In this document: positions 2,101-31,208 of the stretch, piece by piece | Numbering within the stretch: position 1 is the stretch's first letter | Layout of the letters: every line of letters starts with the position of its first letter | From: Prevotellaceae bacterium | GTDB lineage: Bacteria > Bacteroidota > Bacteroidia > Bacteroidales > UBA932 | Direction of reading: 5' to 3' | Length of the DNA: 33,541 nt | Assembly (NCBI GenBank): GCA_031270335.1 | Contig: JAISXV010000103.1 | Span: 1-33,541, forward strand | Translations under genes and position numbers: made by a program | The notes under the pieces: generated by a model | What the model saw: only the letters and a program-made list of their open reading frames with translations | What the model was told of the DNA's origin: nothing | Database searches by the model: none

Positions 2101-5100
2101 TCATGTACTTTTCCACAAAATCCAGTACGTATTTATTGTCTGTTTTTTGCCGGCAACGATGGTATGCGAAAATCCGTATTTACCGAAAATCTCGCAAATA
2201 TCTTTTGTTGAGAAAAAGTTGAGACGGTTATTTGTCTTGTTGAATTTGAAGATTTTAGTAGATAGAAACTCTGTTATTTTGTTGAAGTTATGACTGCCGG
2301 AGTCGGCGTCACGGATGATGATTTTGCCGTTCGGATTCAGTTTTCCCGATATTTGGCGTGCGATGTTTGCTATGTCGTCCGGTTTTACGTAATGTAGCAC
2401 ATCGCTGAATATAAAACAGTCAGCCTGTTCGAAATCATACTTTGTGATATCGGCATGTTCGAAATTCACTTTGCTTGTTTTGATGTAGCAATTGGCGGCG
2501 AGGGTAATCTTGTCTTCGTCGTAATCGATGGCAGTGATTGTTCTACCGGCTGATTTCATGGACAATATGTACGACAAAAAACCGTAACCGCAGCCGGCGT
2601 CCACGATTTTTCCTTTCGACGGAACAAATTTGTCGAAATCGCAGTAAGCGTCTTCTATTTTCAGTTTTATCCGCAGATACCACTCTAACACAGGACCTTT
2701 GTACATAAACGCATCCTGCAGTTTTCGGATACAGTATCGCGAATTAGTCGCCTCCTCGCCCAATTTCGGATATTCGCGCCTGTAGAACGCTGCTATTTCT
2801 TTGGTTCGTTCCCTGTAACCGTCTCCAAACAGTTTATTATCAGGAGAAATCCTGTCGAAAAACTTCAACGTAATCTGATTGGGATATACGGTGAAACAGC
2901 CTTTGTGCAGAGTTTCGTAATTGTTTTGCAACATAATCGGAAGAATGTCAACGCCAAGCTGTTCTGCCAGAAAAAACGCTCCTTTGTGGAAACGTTTGAT
3001 TTCCGAATTGTCGCTTCGTGCGCCTTCGGGAAAAATCATTATCGAATATCCATCGTTCAATGTATTGCGATAAATATCAGGCAAATCCATCCCGCCCGAC
3101 AAAGAATGAAATCCGGCAAATCTCACAAACAGACCCATGACCGGCGAATTCCAAACCCAGTCCTTCACCACAAACACGATTTTCGGCGACAAGGCAAGTA
3201 TTTGCAGTATATCAATCATTGACTGATGATTAGAGATGATTATCGCAGGTTTTTTCAACGTCTCATTATGCGGGTTGATTGTGATTTTCTTTACCGTAAA
3301 CGACAGTAAAATAATGCTTTTAGCCAGAAAATGAATACAATACAGCAATATTGCCCGTTTTTTCTTCCGGCTTGCAGGAAGAATATGGATAATCATGCTG
3401 ATAACCGAAAGCGTCAAACATCCCGCAACAAAATAAGTGAAGAAAAACAGACTGTTAGCTACCGTAAGGAGACTTATCGGCGGATGACCTTTCGAAACGG
3501 GCTTTGCGATTAATATCCGGAACAAAAACGGCTGCAATGTCTGCGAAATAAACAGTACCGACAATATTCCGAGAATCGAAATACTTGCTAACGAATATAT
3601 TGCCGGATGTTTTGCGAACAATAAGGCTCCAAAACCTGTCAATCCCGTTAATCCTGAGATAATTATGCTCATCCGGACTACTGAGGCATGAGTTTCGCTC
3701 TTTTTGTACGACTTGAGGCAACCGTCGGTGGTGAAGATACAGAAATCGTCGCCAAGTCCGAAAATAAACGTTGACAGTATGATATTTACGATGTTGAACT
3801 TGATGCCAAACAAGCCCATTATCCCCAATATCCAGATCCACGAAACAAGCATGGGGAGAAAAGTGATAAGCGTCAATTCTATACGTCCGTATGAGAGCAA
3901 AATCGCCAAAAATACCAGTAACGAAGTGTAAAACGTAATCGTATTGAAATCATTGCCCACCGAATCCACCAAATTCTCCGTTATCAACTGTTTGTTAAAG
4001 ACTTTGGCATGTCCGCTTTTGTTGATGACGCCGGCAATTTCGTTGACGTCTTCCGGCGAGGCTATTACTTTTGAAATCAGAGTACTGATGAGGCTGTCGG
4101 AATAAAAGTAATCTTTTCCAAAAACCTCAATGAGCGAGGCATAATCTTCGTCGGGAATTATATCCGCTTTGCCTTCGAGAGTTGCAAAAAAACTGTCGAA
4201 AGAATCAATATTCAGTTCTTTCGCTGTAAATACCTGTTTGATAGATTCTTTTTCGTGTGTTCGTGAGTTGTTTTTCCAGTAGTTGTTCCATTTATCCGCT
4301 CTTTCCTGCTGTATATATTTTGGCGGAACAGCCTTTGCCACACCAATATACTCGCAACGGTATCCTGCCGACGAAAGACTGTCGGACAAAAGAAATGTTT
4401 TGTACGAATTGCTAAGCGCTTCTTCGGGCGTATCTCCCTTTGACACAATCAATATGCTGTTTTTTGTCGCCAGAATATCGTTAAATTGCCGTTCTGCTTC
4501 CCTCGCAGTTTTCGACATGTAGTTCAACTTGTTTAAATCGCTCTCATACTCAACGTTAAAGGAAAAATACAGCAACGCCGGAGTGAGCGCGGCGATAATA
4601 ATTAAAGGTACGGGCTTTTTGTCTAACGGATAGACGCTTAGCTTCTCGAAAAACCTGCGCGTTCTGTTTGTCTTTTTCGAATCGGGAATTTTTCCGAACA
4701 GATGCGGCAAAAATATCAACGAAAACAGCGCAGCGCCAATAAGACAGAACGCTCCGAAAAGTCCGAAATCCTTCAACAGCGGCGAACCTGTAAACGTCAG
4801 ACACAGAAACCCTCCGACAGTCGTCAGGCTGCCGACGGTCATCGGAAAAACCATTGATTTTATCGTTTTCTCTACATTTCGGTTATGTATGTAGTGAGTG
4901 AAAAAATGTATCGGATAATTCACCGCAATACCCAGAATGACAGCGCCCGAGCCAATTGCAATCAACGACAGCGAGGTCTCGAAAAGACTGACCATTGCCA
5001 ACGAAAACAAAGCGGCAAACGACACTGTCGCTACAATCAGCAAAGGCAGTCGCTTTTTCCCGAATATCGAAATCAACAACAAGAGTATCACCGCTATAAC

Positions 5101-5940
5101 TACGGTCAAAGTTACGTAAATGTCTTTCTGCACCTGTACCGAGTTTCCAACGGCAACAAGCGGAGCGCCAAAGTATTGCACTCTGTAATCTTTGTATTTT
5201 TCGAAACCTGCGACAGCATTGTTGAAATCGCCGGTTATCCTGTCCAAAATCTTAATCAAGACTGCGTTGTTTTTCGTTTCGCCGTATTTGTTCTTGGGAA
5301 TCATCATGATAATGAGATTCTTTTCGTCGCCTGAGAAAAAATATCCGTCGATTGTGATTAAAGTCGAAGCTGTCTGCATCTCTTTCATTTTCAGCAAATG
5401 GTTGAAAGTGAAACCGGCGGGGTCGTACAGCAGTCCTTCACGTGCGAAAGTCCCTCCGGGAGTGGACATTGTACGTATATATCCGCTCAAGACCGAATCT
5501 AACCTCTCCGCAGGAATCAACACCTCGTCACCGTATTTTTCGGCGCCGATAAACATGGGAAAATTCTGGGCTATAATGGAATAGACCTTGACGAAATCGT
5601 CCTGCGACAGGTTCGTTCTCACTTCGCTGAGCAATTCGCCGCATCCGGTTTTGATTACTTCGGTCAAAGTGTCGGCAATAGCCATAAGTACTTCTTTATC
5701 AGATTCGCCGGTCTCGGAATATATTCGCAATATCAGTTGCTCGGTGGACTTCGTTTTGTTGAGAAGCGAAGTAAGTTCTTCTGTTTCAGCATCTGTATTC
5801 AACATCTCCGAAATATCTTCTTCAAAAGATATTCCCGACGCTAAAACGGCGCATAAAGCTATGACCGACAGCAGAAAAACGTTTCTTACTTTCGGATATT
5901 CAGCGAAATACCTGTAAATATTAGCAAATACATTCTCCAT
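2101..5940 (-). CDS. Trifunctional fusion: MMPL/RND-like exporter + lysophospholipid acyltransferase + class I SAM methyltransferase
   Basis: N-terminal half carries repeated TM segments with MMPL-type GLGDDFCIFTTDG; NHQSMIDIL (HX4D, 3211-3231) and FPEGARS mark the LPLAT domain; VDAGCGYGFLSYIL marks the methyltransferase. I prefer the ATG at 5940 (MENVFANIY, preceded by AGGA) to the tracked start at 5988. Confidence 0.88.
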   Translation of the reverse strand: MENVFANIYRYFAEYPKVRNVFLLSVIALCAVLASGISFEEDISEMLNTDAETEELTSLLNKTKSTEQLILRIYSETGESDKEVLMAIADTLTEVIKTGCGELLSEVRTNLSQDDFVKVYSIIAQNFPMFIGAEKYGDEVLIPAERLDSVLSGYIRTMSTPGGTFAREGLLYDPAGFTFNHLLKMKEMQTASTLITIDGYFFSGDEKNLIIMMIPKNKYGETKNNAVLIKILDRITGDFNNAVAGFEKYKDYRVQYFGAPLVAVGNSVQVQKDIYVTLTVVIAVILLLLISIFGKKRLPLLIVATVSFAALFSLAMVSLFETSLSLIAIGSGAVILGIAVNYPIHFFTHYIHNRNVEKTIKSMVFPMTVGSLTTVGGFLCLTFTGSPLLKDFGLFGAFCLIGAALFSLIFLPHLFGKIPDSKKTNRTRRFFEKLSVYPLDKKPVPLIIIAALTPALLYFSFNVEYESDLNKLNYMSKTAREAERQFNDILATKNSILIVSKGDTPEEALSNSYKTFLLSDSLSSAGYRCEYIGVAKAVPPKYIQQERADKWNNYWKNNSRTHEKESIKQVFTAKELNIDSFDSFFATLEGKADIIPDEDYASLIEVFGKDYFYSDSLISTLISKVIASPEDVNEIAGVINKSGHAKVFNKQLITENLVDSVGNDFNTITFYTSLLVFLAILLSYGRIELTLITFLPMLVSWIWILGIMGLFGIKFNIVNIILSTFIFGLGDDFCIFTTDGCLKSYKKSETHASVVRMSIIISGLTGLTGFGALLFAKHPAIYSLASISILGILSVLFISQTLQPFLFRILIAKPVSKGHPPISLLTVANSLFFFTYFVAGCLTLSVISMIIHILPASRKKKRAILLYCIHFLAKSIILLSFTVKKITINPHNETLKKPAIIISNHQSMIDILQILALSPKIVFVVKDWVWNSPVMGLFVRFAGFHSLSGGMDLPDIYRNTLNDGYSIMIFPEGARSDNSEIKRFHKGAFFLAEQLGVDILPIMLQNNYETLHKGCFTVYPNQITLKFFDRISPDNKLFGDGYRERTKEIAAFYRREYPKLGEEATNSRYCIRKLQDAFMYKGPVLEWYLRIKLKIEDAYCDFDKFVPSKGKIVDAGCGYGFLSYILSMKSAGRTITAIDYDEDKITLAANCYIKTSKVNFEHADITKYDFEQADCFIFSDVLHYVKPDDIANIARQISGKLNPNGKIIIRDADSGSHNFNKITEFLSTKIFKFNKTNNRLNFFSTKDICEIFGKYGFSHTIVAGKKQTINTYWILWKST

Positions 5941-7006
5941 TTTTTTTCCTGCATTGCAACAAAGTATGTCCGACGCCTGTGTCGTCAATACTTTTTTCGA
6001 CAGACAATCCCGCTTTGTCTATCAGTTCATAGAAAACATCAGAGGTGTACATCCGGCTGTTTCCATTGGCTATTGCAGTGAAATACAGCGAAGTCATAAT
6101 CAGGCAAAATGCCGAAGTTTCGAAACGTTGCCTGTCCCAGAAAGGCTCAAGAATGAAGACGCTAGTATCTTCGTTCATCGCTTTAACACAGCGATTTAAT
6201 ATCGAAACGATTTCATTTTCGGAAAAACAGTCAAGGAACTGGCTGAGCCAGATGGCGTCGTATCCTTTCGGAAGAGAATTGCGTTCGTCTAACAGATTGG
6301 TTTCCACGAAAGTTATACGTTGCAGGAGATTTTTCTCTGCTGCGTTTTGTTTCGCCATTTCAAGCTGTCCGGGAAGGTCAGCGATTGCTACATGCACTTC
6401 CTGATTGTGTTGCAGACACTTACAAGCAAATTTGCCGGTATTTCCGCCTATGTCCAGTATTTTTTTGGGCTGAATTTCAAATACATGTTTCAGACACTGG
6501 TCAAAAGCGACGTCTGAATAGTAATGGTCAAAAGCGAACCAGCTTGTGCGTACATTTTCAGGAAGTTGCGATAGACCTTCGTACACCGTATTCCACTCTC
6601 CGAACGTCTTCAATCCTTCCGGTTTTCCTGTGCGGACAGATTCTTCGAGACGAAACATTCCGTTGTAACACACATCATTAACAAAATCCGTATTTGCAAC
6701 CGTAAAATCGTTGTGCATGAAAAAATAAGCGGTTTTGGTGAGGAAAAACTTTTCGTCGTCACGGTATAACAATCCAATTGCCAGACCCGCCTCGCAAAGC
6801 ACTCTGACGCCATATTCCGACAATTGTGTTCCTGTTGCAATATCGCTTAACGACAGTCCCTTACCTTTCTCTTTTTCGATTAAATCAAGTATTCCAAGAT
6901 TTTTCAACGCCCTCGACGCCTGAAAAATAACGGGAGCAAACGCAATCCAGTTTGCCTGCCGTACAGCCTCAATAGCCTTTAACGAATCGTTGTTATAATA
7001 GTCCAT
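5921..7006 (-). CDS. COMT-like SAM-dependent O-methyltransferase with N-terminal dimerisation/winged-helix domain
   Basis: LDIGGNTGKFACKCL SAM motif and LSQFLDCFSENEIVSILNRC; N-terminal helical domain LSDIATGTQLSEYGVRVLCEAGLAIGLL. Confidence 0.8.
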   Translation of the reverse strand: MDYYNNDSLKAIEAVRQANWIAFAPVIFQASRALKNLGILDLIEKEKGKGLSLSDIATGTQLSEYGVRVLCEAGLAIGLLYRDDEKFFLTKTAYFFMHNDFTVANTDFVNDVCYNGMFRLEESVRTGKPEGLKTFGEWNTVYEGLSQLPENVRTSWFAFDHYYSDVAFDQCLKHVFEIQPKKILDIGGNTGKFACKCLQHNQEVHVAIADLPGQLEMAKQNAAEKNLLQRITFVETNLLDERNSLPKGYDAIWLSQFLDCFSENEIVSILNRCVKAMNEDTSVFILEPFWDRQRFETSAFCLIMTSLYFTAIANGNSRMYTSDVFYELIDKAGLSVEKSIDDTGVGHTLLQCRKKNGECIC

Positions 7007-7015
7007 ATCAATATA

Positions 7016-8164
7016 TTACCGTTTTTCGAAACATACCGCCGCATTACACCCGCCGAATCCCGACATGGTTTTGATGAAACGAGTCATTTCCCTGTTCTCT
7101 AATTTAGTCTGTATGTTGAGTTTACTACTTGTTCCGCAATCGCTGTAACCGAGCGAAGGTATCAGAATGTTATTGACGAGGCTTTCGATACAAATCACTG
7201 ATTCCATGACGCCTGCCGCTCCCAAAGTGTGTCCGGCATATTGTTTGAGGCTGTGAACAGGAATGTCTGAAACGCCTGCTTCGGCAAACGCCTTGCTTTC
7301 CATTTCGTCGTTGTATATCGTCGCCGTGCCATGCGCCGAAAGAAAATCGAATGTGTTGCTATCTGCCTCATTGACAGCTTTCTTTATTGCTTCGGCAAGT
7401 TCTTCACCTGTACGCGAAGGTCCGGATATGTGGTTGGCGTCGTTTGTCGTCGCTCCTCCCGTCAGATATATTTTGTTGTGATTAAAGTGATTATCGCTGT
7501 TTCTCCGCAAGACGACGGCGGCAGCGCCTTCGCCGAGATTGATTCCGTTTCGTGCCTTGTCGAAAGGACGGCATAGCTGGTCGCTAAGCGCAAACAGCGA
7601 ATTAAATCCCGACAGGACAAAATCGTTGACCGTGTCGGCTCCAATAATTACCGCATAATCATAGTCTTGCGCTTCCAAAAACCTTTTACCCGCAATCATC
7701 GCCGACAGTCCCGACACACAAGCGTTTGAGACGATATAAAACGGCGGCTTTTTTCCTGCAATATTCCCGTACTCAGTTGATAATTTGTCGATTACTTTCT
7801 TTACCGACAGATGGATATTCAAGTTGGCGGCGGAGGGATTTGTTTCAATCTCTTCGATTCCGCCTTTTGTGGTTGCGACAATAACCAAAACTTTGTCGTT
7901 GAATGAGATACCGGATTTTTCCAGAACTTCTTTTCCCGCGCTCCAGATTAAACGCTCAAACCTGTTCCAGCCTTCAAACGGACATAACATTTTCAGCCTG
8001 TTGTTCTGTTCTTCCGAAAAATAAGCGGCATAAACAGGATGTTCCAAAAAATCTTTCCGGAGTTCCTTCAAGCCCGATTTTCCTTCGACAATGGAATCAA
8101 AGACGTCTTTAGCCGAAAAACCCAAAGGATGAATGATGGTATATGATTCTATTTCAGGCGACAT
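7016..8164 (-). CDS. Beta-ketoacyl-ACP synthase (KAS II/FabF-like)
   Basis: Cys-His-His active site present: SNACVSGLSAM, SAHGTATIYND, KQYAGHTLGAAGVME. Confidence 0.88.
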   Translation of the reverse strand: MSPEIESYTIIHPLGFSAKDVFDSIVEGKSGLKELRKDFLEHPVYAAYFSEEQNNRLKMLCPFEGWNRFERLIWSAGKEVLEKSGISFNDKVLVIVATTKGGIEEIETNPSAANLNIHLSVKKVIDKLSTEYGNIAGKKPPFYIVSNACVSGLSAMIAGKRFLEAQDYDYAVIIGADTVNDFVLSGFNSLFALSDQLCRPFDKARNGINLGEGAAAVVLRRNSDNHFNHNKIYLTGGATTNDANHISGPSRTGEELAEAIKKAVNEADSNTFDFLSAHGTATIYNDEMESKAFAEAGVSDIPVHSLKQYAGHTLGAAGVMESVICIESLVNNILIPSLGYSDCGTSSKLNIQTKLENREMTRFIKTMSGFGGCNAAVCFEKR

Positions 8165-8176
8165 GTTCGAAAAACC

Positions 8177-9058
8177 TTATTCTGCCGTTTCCATCCGGTT
8201 TAACGAATCAATCATTCTCTCCAGACTTGAAAACCAGTGATTAATGTCAATTTCATATACCGATTTTATTTTAGCCTTGTTCAGGACTCCATATTTCGGA
8301 CGTTTTGCGGGAGTAGGATAATCGCTTGTTTCTATGGGATATATCTTACATTCCAATTCGTTCAGTTTCATTATTGCGCAAGCGAAATCGTACCAGCTGC
8401 AAACTCCTTCGTTGCTGTAATGGAAAATCCCGGCGACAAATTTTTTTTCACCCGAATTAATTTTGCCTGCAATCGCAAGTATTGCCGACGCCAAATCTTC
8501 TGCATACGTGGGAGTTCCGACCTGATCGAAAACTACGTCGAGCGATTTGCGCTCCTGACCCAACCGTATCATCGTCTTGACGAAATTGTTCCCGAATGTT
8601 GAATACAGCCACGAAGTCCTTATAACCAAAGATTTGGGATAACTTAACGCTTCGAGTTCGGCAGCTGCCTTACTTTTTCCGTATTCCGACTGCGGAGCGA
8701 CCAAATCGCGTTCTACGTAAGGCGTCGGCGATTTCCCGTCGAAAACGTAATCGGTGGATATCTGAATCAGGTACGAATCGTGTAACGAACACGATATCAC
8801 CAGATTCTTCACTGCATCGACGTTGATTTTCCACGCAAGCCGTTTCTCCGATTCTGCCTTATCGACAGCGGTATAGGCTGCGCAATTGATGACAAAATCA
8901 GGTTTTACTTCATCAAAAAACGTCGCACACGCTTGAATATCCGTTATATCCAATTCGTCCACATCGGTAAATACAAAATCAAACTTCGCATCTTTCGATA
9001 ACTTTTTCAATTCACTGCCAAGCTGCCCTTTGGCTCCCGTTACAAGTATCTTTTTCAT
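8177..9058 (-). CDS. rfbD: dTDP-4-dehydrorhamnose reductase
   Basis: VTGAKGQLGSELKKL Rossmann motif, VINCAAYTAVDKAE, QISTDYVFDG, TSWLYSTFGNNFVKTM. Confidence 0.93.
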   Translation of the reverse strand: MKKILVTGAKGQLGSELKKLSKDAKFDFVFTDVDELDITDIQACATFFDEVKPDFVINCAAYTAVDKAESEKRLAWKINVDAVKNLVISCSLHDSYLIQISTDYVFDGKSPTPYVERDLVAPQSEYGKSKAAAELEALSYPKSLVIRTSWLYSTFGNNFVKTMIRLGQERKSLDVVFDQVGTPTYAEDLASAILAIAGKINSGEKKFVAGIFHYSNEGVCSWYDFACAIMKLNELECKIYPIETSDYPTPAKRPKYGVLNKAKIKSVYEIDINHWFSSLERMIDSLNRMETAE

Positions 9059-9059
9059 A

Positions 9060-9974
9060 TTATTTGTTCACTCGAAATTTTTCGTTGCCTGTTTCGAAAA
9101 AGTCAATTATCTGATTCAATGCCGCTACGGCTGCATTGATGTTTGCTTCTTCGGTTTCGGCGCCCATTTTCTTGGGTGTAGCGAAATATCTCATTCCAAA
9201 TTCTTTCATCTTTTCGTGACTGTCAGGCATCACGTCCGTACCGTACTTTATCCCCGGATTTTTCCTCATAGCGTTCAGCAAATCAATTTCATCGATGACT
9301 TCCTTGCGAGCGGTATTAATCAGTATGACGCTTTTCTTCAAGTTCTCCAATATATCCTTATTTATTGATTTAATGGTAGATGGAATCGCCGGAATGTTTA
9401 TCGAAATGACGTCGTTGTCCGAATAGAGTTCGTTGACCGATTTCACAGGAACAACGCCGTCGTCAATAAGGACGCTGTCGTCCACAAACGGGTCGAAAGC
9501 AGATACTTCCATTCCAAAACCTTTTGCCAAGCCCGCAACTAATTTTCCGACATTGCCATAAGCATGTATTCCAAGTTTTTTACCTTTCAGTTCGCTTCCT
9601 GTTCCGGGCAAAAACGTATTCCGGGCAAGGTAAATCATCAGACCCAGCGAGAGTTCTGCAACAGCGTTCGAATTTTGTCCGGGCGTGTTCATTACTACGA
9701 TGTTTCGCTCGCTACACGACTGCAAATCAACATTGTCGTATCCTGCTCCGGCGCGTACAACTATCTTTAAATTCGTAGCCGCATTCACGACCTCAGCCGT
9801 AACTTTGTCGGAACGTACTATCAACGCATCTGCGTCTTTAACTGCCTCTTCCAAATCGGATTGCTCTTTGTATTTTTCGAAAATAACCAATTCGTGTTTT
9901 GCTTGGGCAAGTTCTTTCAGTTGATTCACCGCAACTGATGAAAACGGTTTTTGTGTTGCTAATAATATTTTCAT
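9060..9974 (-). CDS. serA: D-3-phosphoglycerate dehydrogenase, short form with Lys at the catalytic His position
   Basis: VRAGAGYDNVDL, NTPGQNSNAVAELSLGLM, GIHAYGNVGKLVAGLAKGFGM, NTARKEVIDE; YFATPKKMGAETEEAN replaces the usual TPHxGxST motif. Confidence 0.85.
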   Translation of the reverse strand: MKILLATQKPFSSVAVNQLKELAQAKHELVIFEKYKEQSDLEEAVKDADALIVRSDKVTAEVVNAATNLKIVVRAGAGYDNVDLQSCSERNIVVMNTPGQNSNAVAELSLGLMIYLARNTFLPGTGSELKGKKLGIHAYGNVGKLVAGLAKGFGMEVSAFDPFVDDSVLIDDGVVPVKSVNELYSDNDVISINIPAIPSTIKSINKDILENLKKSVILINTARKEVIDEIDLLNAMRKNPGIKYGTDVMPDSHEKMKEFGMRYFATPKKMGAETEEANINAAVAALNQIIDFFETGNEKFRVNK

Positions 9975-17027: not shown

Positions 17028-17603
17028 CTAAACGTCGGGAAAAAGTTTTCGGACACTTAACGTAATTTTCATGTTAAAATTATGATGACGCAAAGAAATT
17101 GATTCTATCTCATCATTATTATTGTAAATATAAACGACTTCGGCGAGTAATTTTCCTTTGCCTCGATATTCCGCTTTGCAAATCCGGTTTTGGGCATCGA
17201 AAGAATAATGCGCCGACTTTTTTTTCGGTAATATCACTGTGCAACTGTCATTTTCGCAGTTTTTGTTGTCGCCGAAAAGATACAGACCGGAGATAAGCGC
17301 AAAATCCTGCTGAAATTGCCGGAGGATAATTCTTCGTTTCAATTTCTTGATTACGTACAGTATTTTGTAGTCATTTTGAGAGATATACATGTCCATAAGT
17401 TTCGGACCGGCGACTGTGGTAAACAATATTCTGCATTTGTTTGCTTCGTCTTTCTTAATCACCATCACACCCGAAACGGTACGCCCCGAAACCTCCACAA
17501 CTGCATTAAAAAAAACTTCTCCGAACATTTCTTGCATGTCGCGGGCAAACAGAGCGGGACTGTTCGTCATCAACAATATACTAATCAACAAGAAACGCCT
17601 CAT
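17028..17603 (-). CDS. Exported protein of unknown function downstream of LolA-like gene
   Basis: N-terminal signal peptide (MRRFLLISILLMTNSPALFA) and a beta-rich body; overlaps the LolA-like gene by 23 bp on the same strand. Confidence 0.65.
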   Translation of the reverse strand: MRRFLLISILLMTNSPALFARDMQEMFGEVFFNAVVEVSGRTVSGVMVIKKDEANKCRILFTTVAGPKLMDMYISQNDYKILYVIKKLKRRIILRQFQQDFALISGLYLFGDNKNCENDSCTVILPKKKSAHYSFDAQNRICKAEYRGKGKLLAEVVYIYNNNDEIESISLRHHNFNMKITLSVRKLFPDV

Positions 17604-18240
17604 CAGTGATAGTGTTATTTGTCCTGATATTTTCGAAATACATCACAGTTTCGTCGCCCGAAGTCTCTTTCATAATCGTTTTTTCAATTATGAAAGTCAC
17701 TTTATTGATGTACAAATCAAATTTTTTGTAGTATTTTTTCAGTTCTTTCGATTTTGGAACGAGGACAATCAGATATGAACTTTCATTTTCAAGAATAGTC
17801 GAGCCAAAATCTTTTGAATCAAAGATTTTGCCATTGATTGCATATATTGTGATTTGGCTGATTTGCTCGAAAAGTCTGTTATTCTTCACAATCATCGACG
17901 AAGCGGCTCGTTCCCCGTCTTTGATGGTGATTTTTCCGTTGCGCATGGCAAATATAAATGCGTTGGGCTTGAAATATTCGATTTTCAAACAGTTATCGTT
18001 TCTGAATAACATTTGTCCTGTCGAACTCAGTTTGTTTGTGAGAAGCGTAATCTCCTTTTCCTGAACGAAATCCGCTTCGAGAGTTTTTATTCCTTCGGAA
18101 ACGGTTTTATATCGCTGTCTGAAAACATTTTCGTTTTCGACAGCCTTAAACTCTTCCGCTAATACACAATAATTTAACAAACACAAAAGAAATGCAAATG
18201 TGCAAATGTGTAAATATGATAAAAACGCTCTTCGTTTCAT
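17581..18240 (-). CDS. LolA-like outer membrane lipoprotein carrier family protein
   Basis: Signal peptide, then VSEGIKTLEADFVQEKEITLLTNKLSSTGQMLFRNDNCLKIEYFKPNAFIFAMRNGKITIKDG, the LolA fold pattern. Confidence 0.8.
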   Translation of the reverse strand: MKRRAFLSYLHICTFAFLLCLLNYCVLAEEFKAVENENVFRQRYKTVSEGIKTLEADFVQEKEITLLTNKLSSTGQMLFRNDNCLKIEYFKPNAFIFAMRNGKITIKDGERAASSMIVKNNRLFEQISQITIYAINGKIFDSKDFGSTILENESSYLIVLVPKSKELKKYYKKFDLYINKVTFIIEKTIMKETSGDETVMYFENIRTNNTITDEAFLVD

Positions 18241-19022
18241 TCGTCGTGCTGTTTTGCCTCCTCCCAGATTTCGTTCATTTCGTCCAAAGTCATTGATTTC
18301 AGGGAACGTCCCTGCCTGATAGTTTTGTTTTCGAGATATGTGAAACGACTGATAAACTTGCGGTTTGTCCGTTCCAGCGCCGTTTCGGGATTGATTCCGT
18401 AAAGACGGGCAGCGTTGACCATCGAAAACAGTAAATCGCCAAATTCGGCTTCCATTCTGTACTCGTCCATTTCGTTGATTTCGTGTAACAACTCCTGTTT
18501 TTCCTCCTCGAATTTATCCCAGACCTGCTCTTTCTGTTCCCAGTCGAAACCCACGGCGGCGACTTTATCCTGTATTCTGCCGGCTTTGATGAGGGCGGGC
18601 AACGACGCCGGAACTCCGGAAAGGACGGTTTTATTCCCGTCTTTTTCTTTGATTTTCAACTGTTCCCAGTTTTTAATCACCTCGCCGGAACTATCGGCTT
18701 CGACCTCGCCGAAAACATGCGGATGCCGGTATATCAGTTTATCGCACAAAGTATTGACGACGTCCGAAATATCGAATTTCTCCTGCTCTACGGCTATCTT
18801 CGAATAAAAAATGATATGCAGCAACAAGTCGCCGAGTTCCTTTTTTATATCGTTGAAATCGCCGCGAATAATGGCGTCGGAAAGCTCGTAAGTCTCTTCG
18901 ATAGAGAGTGTTCGCAACGAATCAATTGTCTGTTCCCTGTCCCACGGACATTTCTCCCGCAATTCGTCCATGACGTCCAATAATCGCTCGAAAGCCGGCA
19001 AATGTTTTTTGTTGTCCATCAC
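18237..19022 (-). CDS. mazG: Nucleoside triphosphate pyrophosphohydrolase
   Basis: LLDVMDELREKCPWDREQTIDSLRTLSIEETYELSDAI, EFGDLLFSMVNAARL, EEAKQHDE. Confidence 0.95.
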   Translation of the reverse strand: MMDNKKHLPAFERLLDVMDELREKCPWDREQTIDSLRTLSIEETYELSDAIIRGDFNDIKKELGDLLLHIIFYSKIAVEQEKFDISDVVNTLCDKLIYRHPHVFGEVEADSSGEVIKNWEQLKIKEKDGNKTVLSGVPASLPALIKAGRIQDKVAAVGFDWEQKEQVWDKFEEEKQELLHEINEMDEYRMEAEFGDLLFSMVNAARLYGINPETALERTNRKFISRFTYLENKTIRQGRSLKSMTLDEMNEIWEEAKQHDE

Positions 19023-20677
19023 TGTTTATTTTGTTTTAACCATGAATCTTTCAGTGTAACAGTGCGATTGAATATCAGTTTGTCGGGCGTCGAATCATAA
19101 TCGGGATAAAAATATCCGATACGCTCGAACTGTACGCTTTCTTTGACGTCTTTCAGCGAAGGTTCGGCAAAAGCGTTCGCCACAGTCAGCGATTCGGGGT
19201 TGAGATAATCCGTATATGTCTTGTCTTCAGGTATATCGTCCATGCTGTTTTCGGTAAACAAACGGTCGTACAGACGGACTTCTACCGGCAAAGCCTCGTG
19301 GACATTAACCCAGTGTATCGTGCCTTTCACCTGTTTAGCGCTACTGCTGCCGCTTTTGGTTTCGGGATCGTAAGTGCAGCGCAATTCTACGATTTCGCCC
19401 TCGTCGTTTCTGACAACTTCCTCACATTTGATGATATAGGCATATTTCAGACGGACTTCGCTGCCGGGAGCCAGACGGAAATATTTTTTTGGCGGAACTT
19501 CCATGAAATCGTTTTTCTCGATATACAACTCGCGTCCGAAAGTGATTTCCCGCGTTCCGGCGTCTGGATTTTCGGGATTGTTGATTGCGTGCAGAATTTC
19601 CGTTTGCGATTCGGGATAATTGATTATCACGATTTTCAACGGGTCGAGCACAACTAATCTGCGCTCGGCGCGTTTGTTCAAATCTTCACGCACACAGTTT
19701 TCCAAAAGCGAAAGTTCTATCATGTTCTGACGTTTTGCCACCCCTACCCTTTCGGCAAAATTACGGACGCTCTCGGGAGTGTAACCTCTGCGCCGTAAAC
19801 CGCAGATAGTCGGCATTCTGGGATCGTCCCAGCCCGAAACAATCCCGTTTTTCACTAATTCGAGCAGTTTACGCTTGCTCATCATGGTGTACGTAAGGTT
19901 CAGACGTGCAAATTCGTACTGATGCGAAGGAAATATTTCGAGTTTTTCGATAAACCAGTCGTACAAAGGTCTGTGAATATCGAACTCCAAAGTACAGATA
20001 GAGTGCGTGATATGTTCGTATGAATCCGACTGTCCGTGAGCGTAATCATACATCGGATAAATACACCATTTGTCGCCTGTGCGATGATGATTTGCGTGTA
20101 TAATCCGGTACATAATCGGGTCGCGCATCATCATGTTCGGATGCGCCATGTCGATTTTTGCACGCAGGACTTTGTCGCCGTCCTGAAATTCTCCGGCACG
20201 CATACGGGCAAATAAATCAAGGTTTTCGTCCACCGGACGGTCACGAAACGGACTGTTGACGCCGGCTTGCGTAATTGTTCCCCTGTTGGTTCGTATTTCG
20301 TCCTGATTCTGGTCATCTACATAAGCCAAATCCTTGCGAATGAGGTCTTGCGCCCAGACGTAAAGTTGTTCGAAATAGTCGGACGCATAATATTCGGCAA
20401 CCCATTCAAAACCCAGCCATTTGATGTCTTCCTTAATGGAATCGACATATTCAACGTCTTCTTTGACGGGATTGGTGTCGTCGAATCGCAGGTTGGTTTT
20501 TCCGCCATATTTCAGCGCCACGCCGAAATTCAGACAAATGGATTTAGCATGTCCTATATGCAGATATCCGTTCGGTTCGGGTGGAAAACGCGTTAAAACA
20601 GTATCACATTTTCCCTCATTCAGGTCATTTTCAATTATCTCCTCTATGAAGTTTAGAGTTTTATTTTCTTCTGTCAT
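19019..20677 (-). CDS. glnS: Glutaminyl-tRNA synthetase
   Basis: TRFPPEPNGYLHIGHAKSICLNFG, LRFDDTNPVKEDVEYVDSIKEDIKWLGF, TYTMMSKRKLLELV. Confidence 0.97.
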   Translation of the reverse strand: MTEENKTLNFIEEIIENDLNEGKCDTVLTRFPPEPNGYLHIGHAKSICLNFGVALKYGGKTNLRFDDTNPVKEDVEYVDSIKEDIKWLGFEWVAEYYASDYFEQLYVWAQDLIRKDLAYVDDQNQDEIRTNRGTITQAGVNSPFRDRPVDENLDLFARMRAGEFQDGDKVLRAKIDMAHPNMMMRDPIMYRIIHANHHRTGDKWCIYPMYDYAHGQSDSYEHITHSICTLEFDIHRPLYDWFIEKLEIFPSHQYEFARLNLTYTMMSKRKLLELVKNGIVSGWDDPRMPTICGLRRRGYTPESVRNFAERVGVAKRQNMIELSLLENCVREDLNKRAERRLVVLDPLKIVIINYPESQTEILHAINNPENPDAGTREITFGRELYIEKNDFMEVPPKKYFRLAPGSEVRLKYAYIIKCEEVVRNDEGEIVELRCTYDPETKSGSSSAKQVKGTIHWVNVHEALPVEVRLYDRLFTENSMDDIPEDKTYTDYLNPESLTVANAFAEPSLKDVKESVQFERIGYFYPDYDSTPDKLIFNRTVTLKDSWLKQNKQ

Positions 20678-28787: not shown

Positions 28788-31208
28788 ATGAACTCAAGAA
28801 TAATTTTAGCAGCGACAGTAGTATTATTTATGCTGCAACAGGTAAAAATCTCTGCGCAAGTTGCCGACCTTGACGGAGGACCAATGGGAATCGAACGCGT
28901 AGCGATGTGTGTCGGTTCGCCGATTCCGTATCTTTCGACGCCTCCGAAAGACAGTCTTCTCCCGAACTGGGTACAGATTGACCTTGGCGCTGTTTATCCC
29001 GTCGAAGCGGTGAAACTGTATCCTTATTTTCAAGATCAAGCCTGGCCCGGAGCGCATTCGCATAATTTTCCTGTCCGTTTCCGTATCGAAGCGGCGGGAA
29101 GCGAAGCGTTTGCCAATTCATACACGGTGATAGACCAGACAAAATTCGATTTTGTCAGTTATCCGTTGGAAATTAAGACTTACAAACTTCCACAACCGGT
29201 ACAGGCGCGTTATGTACGGCTGACGGTTTTCAAGCCGGACGTCTTTGAACTTTGGCGTTTCGAAGTGATTTCGGAAGGAAAGGACGTCGCCGAAGGCAAG
29301 ACGCTCGCTGATTCCAATAATGGTAATCTGGGGAAACATTTCCTGTTGCGTCCGCAACGTCCCGTCGGCGAAAACGTATGGTTCGACCATCCCGAACAGG
29401 TTACAGCTCCGGAAACATGGAAGCCTGTCAAAGCGCCGTTGAAAACTCCTCGTAGCGGTGTGACTGTCGGAGGACTGTTTAAACAGACCTTAGACAAAAA
29501 TATCCATTACCTGTTTAACTCGTTCAGCGTACATGATATGGCGCACAATTTCCTCGAACGTGCGAATAAAGACGTCGGAAGAACATTCGAAGGTCCCAGC
29601 AGTTGGTTTACACGCGGACTGGGCGGCTCTATCGCCGGGCGTTTCCTGATGGGCGCCGGAAATACGTTGCGCTGGCAAAGCGACGAAGAACTGCGTCGCC
29701 GGATGGATGAACTAATTGATTATATCGAAATATGCGCTACTCCCGAAGGATATATCCACGGCTACGCCGAACGTACTATCCTGCAAGGACAAAACAATGG
29801 CTACGCACGCGGCTGGATTTCACAGGGACTTGTCGAAGCGGGAGTTGCCGGCAATCCGAAAGCCTGGCAACTGTTACGCCGTAGCGGTGATTGGTTCAAT
29901 TCCTGTCCGTATTTGCCCGAAATGATGTTTCGCGTCCCTATCGGCAATCAAGGAATGGTGGCAAACTCCCGGACCTACCTTGATACCGACATCGGCGTAC
30001 CAGCTGATATTCAGGTCTTACAACGATATTTTCAACTCAATTTCTGGCTCGACCAACTCATCGAGCGCGACCCGTCGGCTATCTGGCAATATCAATACGA
30101 ACGCGTTCACAGTTACCTCATCATCGTGCTGAACGCCTACATGGACATGTACATGGCTACCGGCGACCAATATTATCTGAAAGCGATGCATGGAGCCTGG
30201 GATATCTTTCACGAACATTTTACGCATACCGGCGGCAGTATCAGCGTGATTGAATCCTATACCTTTCCGCCGCGTCAGTTTCCGCCAAAATCCTATCATT
30301 TAAGAATGAGTACCGGCGAGTTGTGCGGAAATGTTTTCTGGGCGGTGTTTAACGAGCAGTTGCGTGTTCTGTATCCCGATAACGGAGAAAAATATGTTGC
30401 CGAAATCGAAAAGAGTATCTACAATATTGGCATTGCCAATCAAGACCGTGACAATGGGAACATTCGCTATCATGCGCGTCTTATCGGTAAAAAGGAAAAC
30501 GGCGGCTGCGGAGGCTCGTGTTGCGAAGGTCAGGGAACGCGGCTGTACGGGATGTTGCCGGAGTTTGTGTATAAGATTGCTGTTGATGGTCTTTATGTTG
30601 ATTTATTCAACGAATCGTCAATCGAATGGGAACAGGACGGCAAAAAACTTTCGCTGCATCAACACAGCGATTTTCCGTTGAATCCCGAAGTGAAACTGCA
30701 TTTCGAACTCACAGCGCCGGTTAAAAGCAAGATTCGTGTCCGTGTACCCTCGTGGGCTTCGTCGAAGATGGATATCTTTGTGAACGGCAAGAAAGCCGCT
30801 ACAGGAAATGCCGGCTCTTATGTTACGCTCAATCGCACGTGGAACAATAACGACGTCGTCAGTTTTACTCTGCCGATGGATTTTCGTATGACAAAATACG
30901 CCGGCGTCACCGATGATTTTACAGGAAAAGAGGCTTACGCTCTGGAATATGGTCCGTTGCTGATGGGACTTGTCGGCGACGAGGTCAAAAACGGCATTTT
31001 CAATCTTCCGTTTGCTGTAAACGAATTGAAATCAAAACTGAAACCGGTAGCCGGAAAACCGTTACATTTCAACGTCGAAGGAACAAACGGTGTTGAATAT
31101 GTTCCGTATTACGAAATCCACAAAGAAACGTTTACCTGTTATCCGTTTTTTACGACGAAATTCTCATCATTCCAAATACAATCTCGAAGTTCTATTTTAC
31201 CTTCATAA
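28788..31208 (+). CDS. GH127-like (DUF1680, beta-L-arabinofuranosidase family) glycosidase with N-terminal discoidin-like domain
   Basis: Signal peptide; discoidin-like [23 protein letters not shown]127 motifs GELCGNVFW (E-x-C) and [22 protein letters not shown]. Confidence 0.83.

Follow-up and report, generated by a model that had tools for sequence, protein, structure and literature searches.

Three adjacent genes in the window (the whole stretch of 33,541 nucleotides of Prevotellaceae bacterium DNA that was analyzed) very probably encode FlxI, FlxJ, and FlxU of the flexirubin-type aryl polyene pathway, dispersed over at least six places in the genome; the probability of this reading is put at about 0.87. 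The pathway is a known one in an unusual, dispersed arrangement, and the trio looks stranded because the usual single pigment cluster is broken into at least six pieces. A single contiguous cluster is usual, but it is not required for function. The trio and the genes upstream of it are:

2101–5940, minus strand: FlxU-type exporter fusion, 1279 aa (Pfam domains, collinear orthologs, ApeM/ApeD matches, motifs)
5921–7006, minus strand: FlxJ-family methyltransferase (ApeB-like), 361 aa (NF053543 score, ApeB match, structure 3dp7)
7016–8164, minus strand: FlxI ketosynthase, 382 aa (tree clade, 100/100; match to E. coli ApeO, E = 3.5e-39)
8177–9058, minus strand: rmlD, dTDP-4-dehydrorhamnose reductase (TIGR01214, 300 bits, above cut-off)
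9060–9974, minus strand: serA-like 2-hydroxyacid dehydrogenase, the first gene of the same-strand run (Pfam/NCBIfam)

In the ORF listing of the window, a gap of 9 bp (7007–7015) separates the ketosynthase and methyltransferase genes, and the methyltransferase gene overlaps the fusion by 20 bp (5921–5940), exactly as in an earlier description made from the letters alone (the sequence-only reading). The listing begins the fusion with a TTG at 5988; orthologs from the same genus begin at the ATG at 5940, which gives the length of about 1279 residues that was originally proposed. The upstream host gene of the flxI piece is rmlD, at a distance of 12 bp.

The fusion contains MMPL, acyltransferase, and methyltransferase domains according to Pfam, in agreement with the three parts recognized earlier, and these are laid out as an MMPL/RND transporter, a PlsC-type acyltransferase (Pfam match from about residue 893), and a class I methyltransferase with its SAM motif at residues 1114–1120. 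The middle gene encodes a dimerization domain and Methyltransf_2, and in the third gene (7016–8164) both the N and C halves of ketoacyl-synt are found. The ketosynthase retains the cysteine in NACVSG and the histidines in AHGTAT and GHTLGAAG, so the intact C-H-H triad of the sequence-only reading stands, and the fusion retains HX4D, EGxR, and the SAM motif. The acyltransferase H and EG.R residues are invariant in all 128 FlxU orthologs. Proton relays of MMPL proteins usually have an Asp in TM4. In FlxU (residues 341 and 732; window 2101–5940, minus strand), the TM4 position is Asn in 82 of the 128 orthologs and Asp in only 19, and the TM10 Asp is invariant (128/128); judged from these residues, FlxU coupling may rest on a single Asp.

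In a tree of 41 ketosynthases that took in FabF, FlxC, FlxN, and the E. coli APE ketosynthases, the window ketosynthase is placed in the FlxI clade, apart from FabF, and the FabF of this genome (C60) pairs with that of E. coli (96/92), away from the window enzyme. A housekeeping FabF, against which the sequence-only reading had advised a check, is ruled out by this placement. The middle gene scores 524 bits across the whole NCBIfam FlxJ model NF053543 (a little below the curated cut-off of 560), matches E. coli ApeB over residues 4–355 (E = 4e-109), has 3dp7 as its closest solved structure, and adjoins FlxI, as in Chitinophaga. Its initial description as a COMT-like methyltransferase was correct as to the domains but incomplete, as the enzyme is probably of the FlxJ/ApeB type, the pathway's own methyltransferase. 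FlxU matches E. coli ApeM and ApeD, which are two separate proteins there, and with a profile built from 128 FlxU sequences both matches become stronger (2.6e-40 and 4.1e-27, respectively); the C-terminal methyltransferase of FlxU has no match to ApeB. Chitinophaga and other Bacteroidales also have complete flx clusters whose exporter gene is collinear with FlxU from end to end. In a scan of a genome collection of 84,980 species, relatives that are collinear with the fusion over its full length turned up across Bacteroidota, with 340 candidate stretches and dozens of Bacteroidales genomes, consistent with the suggestion that the fusion is common in this group.

The gene order of the Chitinophaga skermanii cluster (L023) reads ketosynthase, methyltransferase, FAD enzyme, a 206-aa protein without a Pfam match, ACP, ketosynthase, ketosynthase-like protein, polysaccharide deacetylase, LolA, LolB, FabA-like dehydratase, glycosyltransferase, the fusion, FAD oxidoreductase, C45 acyltransferase, PPTase, and ligase. 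The functions assigned to flxI–flxY in C. pinensis (PMC3992019) agree with this order, which identifies the window genes as FlxI, FlxJ, and FlxU; we infer the flx letters from gene order. The likeness to aryl polyene and flexirubin clusters that had been noticed in the sequence is thus borne out by the FlxI clade, the FlxJ/ApeB match, and the orthology of FlxU.

The remaining pieces lie elsewhere in the window and on other contigs of the same genome:

17028–17603, minus strand: LolB2 of flexirubin transport (FlxR; NF053540, 89.2 bits, cut-off 60)
17581–18240, minus strand: LolA2 of flexirubin transport (FlxQ; NF053544, 162.9 bits, cut-off 125)
18237–20677, minus strand: glnS–mazG housekeeping genes (TIGR00440 and NF007113, above cut-off)
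C7: tyrS–FlxA–FlxB–FlxC–ACP–adoK
C106: FlxW–FlxY, then mutS2
C202: ACP–FlxN–FlxO
C274: acyltransferase–KS–ACP–rmlB
C176: FAD oxidoreductase–LolA2–dehydratase–dehydratase, the dehydratases being FlxF- and FlxS-like
C48: second MMPL

The names tyrS (C7), adoK, and rmlB were read from the translations and are not tool assignments. The flx genes are found at 2.1–8.2 kb and 17.0–18.2 kb of the window and on C7, C106, C202, C274, and C176, not in one contiguous cluster. The LolA2/LolB2 piece, 9 kb from the trio (17028–18240), was missed by the sequence-only reading; its LolA2 is 34% to the LolA of the Chitinophaga flx cluster, and glnS–mazG lie directly upstream, with overlaps of 4 bp by the ORF coordinates. 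FlxA, a tyrosine ammonia-lyase on C7, scores 725 bits against NF053541 (cut-off 700), FlxY, a 4-coumarate ligase on C106, 624 bits against NF053551 (cut-off 520), and the ketoreductase FlxB 397 bits against NF053542 (cut-off 340), while carrier proteins adjoin FlxC, FlxN, and the C274 KS. The reported absence of an ACP, ligase, ammonia lyase, ketoreductase, and dehydratase therefore holds for the window but not for the genome, which carries them on other contigs, and the cluster, described as reduced or scattered, is scattered but not reduced, since the supposedly missing enzymes are elsewhere. What had been taken for the novelty, the minimal context, reflects a known pathway that is dispersed rather than a minimal pathway of a new kind. 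The proposed search for a canonical cluster found no intact one, and a second MMPL and a V–LolA–F–S set do exist.

The FlxT glycosyltransferase, FlxP deacetylase, FlxK, FlxX PPTase, and a clear thioesterase were not found in 708 kb of the 2.91 Mb genome. A flexirubin in the narrow sense is an aryl polyene joined by an ester bond to a dialkylresorcinol and would call for DarA and DarB; tblastn found neither of them in the same 708 kb, a result that is not decisive. A genome-wide PF08545 search found one FabH-like enzyme only, but this model is a poor DarB detector: of two known DarB proteins used as controls, one reached 22.7 bits and the other gave no score, and the absence of DarB inferred from PF08545 was withdrawn because the model missed or barely scored these positive controls.

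The second MMPL and the genes associated with it are located at L015:733–3219 (G000:C48) and L224:4307–7323 (G000:C176) here, and on L225, L226, and L229 in relatives. In three related genomes (G004, G007, and G011), it is directly followed by the FAD oxidoreductase, then by LolA2 and two dehydratase-like genes. The genome of the window has the second MMPL on C48 and the FAD oxidoreductase–LolA2–dehydratases on C176. As G004 has this set but no FlxA, FlxJ, FlxU, or FlxY, the set may be a separate lipid export system. Elsewhere in the window, an 806-aa protein encoded just after dnaA (28788–31208, plus strand) shows a weak match to an aceric acid hydrolase model (88 bits, cut-off 950).

The window's MAG comprises 290 contigs and is 83.5% complete with 2.75% contamination, figures that leave some room for a mixture of two organisms in which the dispersal would be a binning or assembly effect; all members of the genus are fragmented MAGs. 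However, the tyrS–A and rmlD–I junctions recur in three or four separate MAGs of the genus at 73–90% identity, and unrelated housekeeping genes stand on either side of the piece on C7 and of the two in the window, so that such mixing is extremely unlikely. FlxA-B-C-D are placed after tyrS, FlxI-FlxJ after serA-rmlD, and LolA2-LolB2 after glnS-mazG. The first two placements are conserved in the genus: the order tyrS-A-B-C-D is shared with G007 and G011 and tyrS-A-B with G006, and the order serA-rmlD-I-J is shared with G006 and G007 and rmlD-I-J with G011. The W-Y-mutS2 junction was not seen in relatives. Other genera of the same family have kept an ordinary contiguous cluster.

Across the 13 genus members, FlxA, FlxJ, FlxU, and FlxY come and go together, allowing for genome incompleteness: all four are missing in five genomes, including G010 (95% complete) and G008 (89%), and at least two are present in seven. 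FlxU adjoins FlxJ only in the window's genome; it stands alone in G006, G007, and G009, and is found beside ACP-N-O (M-N-O) in G011. The adjacent, operon-like trio, which no other pathway gene touches, could be viewed as a reduced module that works alone, producing a methylated lipid anchored in the membrane and borrowing its carrier protein and reducing enzymes from fatty acid synthesis. Yet dedicated FlxA, B, C, N, O, W, and Y, carrier proteins, and LolA2/B2 reside in the same genome, FlxJ and FlxU share their presence/absence pattern with FlxA and FlxY, and the separation of FlxU from FlxI-FlxJ in four same-genus genomes means that the trio is not a conserved unit. This explanation is very unlikely, and a minimal self-contained module is rejected on these grounds.

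The flx genes are under purifying selection. Measured against same-genus copies, dN/dS is 0.13 for FlxU and about 0.07–0.11 for FlxA, FlxJ, and FlxI, compared with 0.13 for the neighboring rmlD and 0.05–0.06 for serA and tyrS, all of these values being rough with synonymous sites near saturation. Their closeness to the values of rmlD and serA indicates that the flx genes are working genes and not chance frames, and the dN/dS values together with the intact motifs rule out the trio as pseudogenes. A pigment pathway that was lost and left these pieces behind to decay might be suggested by the dispersal itself, by the canonical genes missing in the searched 708 kb, and by the fact that several genus members lack the entire set; with all frames open, catalytic motifs intact, and dN/dS (about 0.08–0.13) near that of housekeeping neighbors, this is unlikely.

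The dispersed flx genes may have entered the genus from outside. In the FlxU tree, the genus groups with an uncultured Bacteroidales MAG (L020), and both fall within a clade rich in Chitinophagia and Cytophagia, and in the ketosynthase tree FlxI and FlxN lean toward the Chitinophagia/Cytophagia versions rather than the family's own; the environmental sequence set was selected by similarity to the window. One genus member, G003, has ordinary Bacteroidales-type FlxA and FlxY (L235 and L236), and the others have a divergent type. Grouping with Bacteroidales withstood an AU test both for FlxA (p = 0.31) and for FlxY (p = 0.38), and the constrained-tree test of FlxU is confounded, as the Bacteroidales sequences do not form one clade anyway. 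Horizontal acquisition followed by dispersal is possible on these phylogenies. Contig C274 carries a second FlxC-type ketosynthase (L006:8847–10327) with its own carrier protein beside rmlB; unlike the C7 copy, it branches near same-family copies (weakly, 81/28), and the genome may carry FlxC genes of two origins.

The flxA–flxY cluster of C. pinensis (PMC3992019) has counterparts here of FlxA, B, C, I, J, N, O, Q, R, U, W, and Y, including both the full-length exporter fusion and the tyrosine ammonia-lyase. In contrast to the present genome, where the genes occupy at least six places, C. pinensis has one contiguous cluster with the DAR genes apart; no counterparts of its K, P, T, X, and DarA/DarB turned up when a quarter of the genome here was searched. 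The ape cluster of E. coli CFT073 (apeA–R; PMC8253772) shares ApeB with FlxJ over the full length, and FlxI and FlxN relate to ApeO, FlxO weakly to ApeC, and FlxU to ApeM and ApeD; there, however, ApeM and ApeD are separate and the genes clustered, whereas here one polypeptide joins both with an extra methyltransferase, and the starter would come from tyrosine via FlxA. Flx clusters of same-family Bacteroidales (G020, G023, G056, G059, and G068) contain the same gene families in the order I-L-N-O-P-Q-S-T-U-(V)-W-Y, but they are contiguous, and it is with Chitinophagia/Cytophagia, not with them, that FlxU, FlxI, and FlxN of the window branch. The arcuflavin/xanthomonadin clusters share with flx clusters a conserved exporter, LolA, glycerophospholipid acyltransferase, and glycosyltransferase, and in Azoarcus the genes lie in two clusters, compared with six or more pieces here; the arcuflavin/xanthomonadin starter is derived from chorismate (PMC3949708). 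A literature search, with most subscription journals outside its reach, returned no paper reporting a dispersed flx pathway by title or abstract.

By homology to the characterized FlxA and FlxY of C. pinensis (PMC3992019) and to Ape proteins whose roles come from E. coli genetics (PMC8253772), a route can be proposed. FlxA would deaminate tyrosine to 4-coumarate, which FlxY would activate by ligation, and FlxC, FlxI, and FlxN, with the chain-length-like FlxO, would then carry out type II elongation on acyl carrier proteins. Reduction by the FlxB ketoreductase and dehydration by the FlxF/FlxS-like dehydratases would produce the polyene, the aryl ring of which FlxJ would methylate. The acyltransferase domain of FlxU, predicted to do the job proposed for ApeD, and the C45 acyltransferase FlxW would mediate esterification or attachment of a lipid anchor, after which the product would pass through the inner membrane via the RND part of FlxU and be carried to the outer membrane by LolA2/LolB2. 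The pieces may be co-transcribed with their host operons. A tentative scenario, somewhat less likely than an even chance, is that a gut Bacteroidales clade took up a Chitinophagia/Cytophagia-type flexirubin cluster, split it, and fixed the pieces downstream of tyrS, serA-rmlD, and glnS-mazG; pigment synthesis would then be expressed from essential operons and no longer have a cluster to itself, and its product might have an anchor that lacks dialkylresorcinol.

Cluster-finding programs expect natural-product genes to lie side by side, and a dispersed pathway would escape them or, as here, resemble a puzzling fragment. The FlxU fusion physically joins the exporter, the anchoring acyltransferase, and a methyltransferase, which suggests that aryl polyenes receive their lipid anchor at the exporter in the inner membrane. 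If the pieces are driven from housekeeping operons, this genus would provide a natural case of a specialized pathway wired into core expression.
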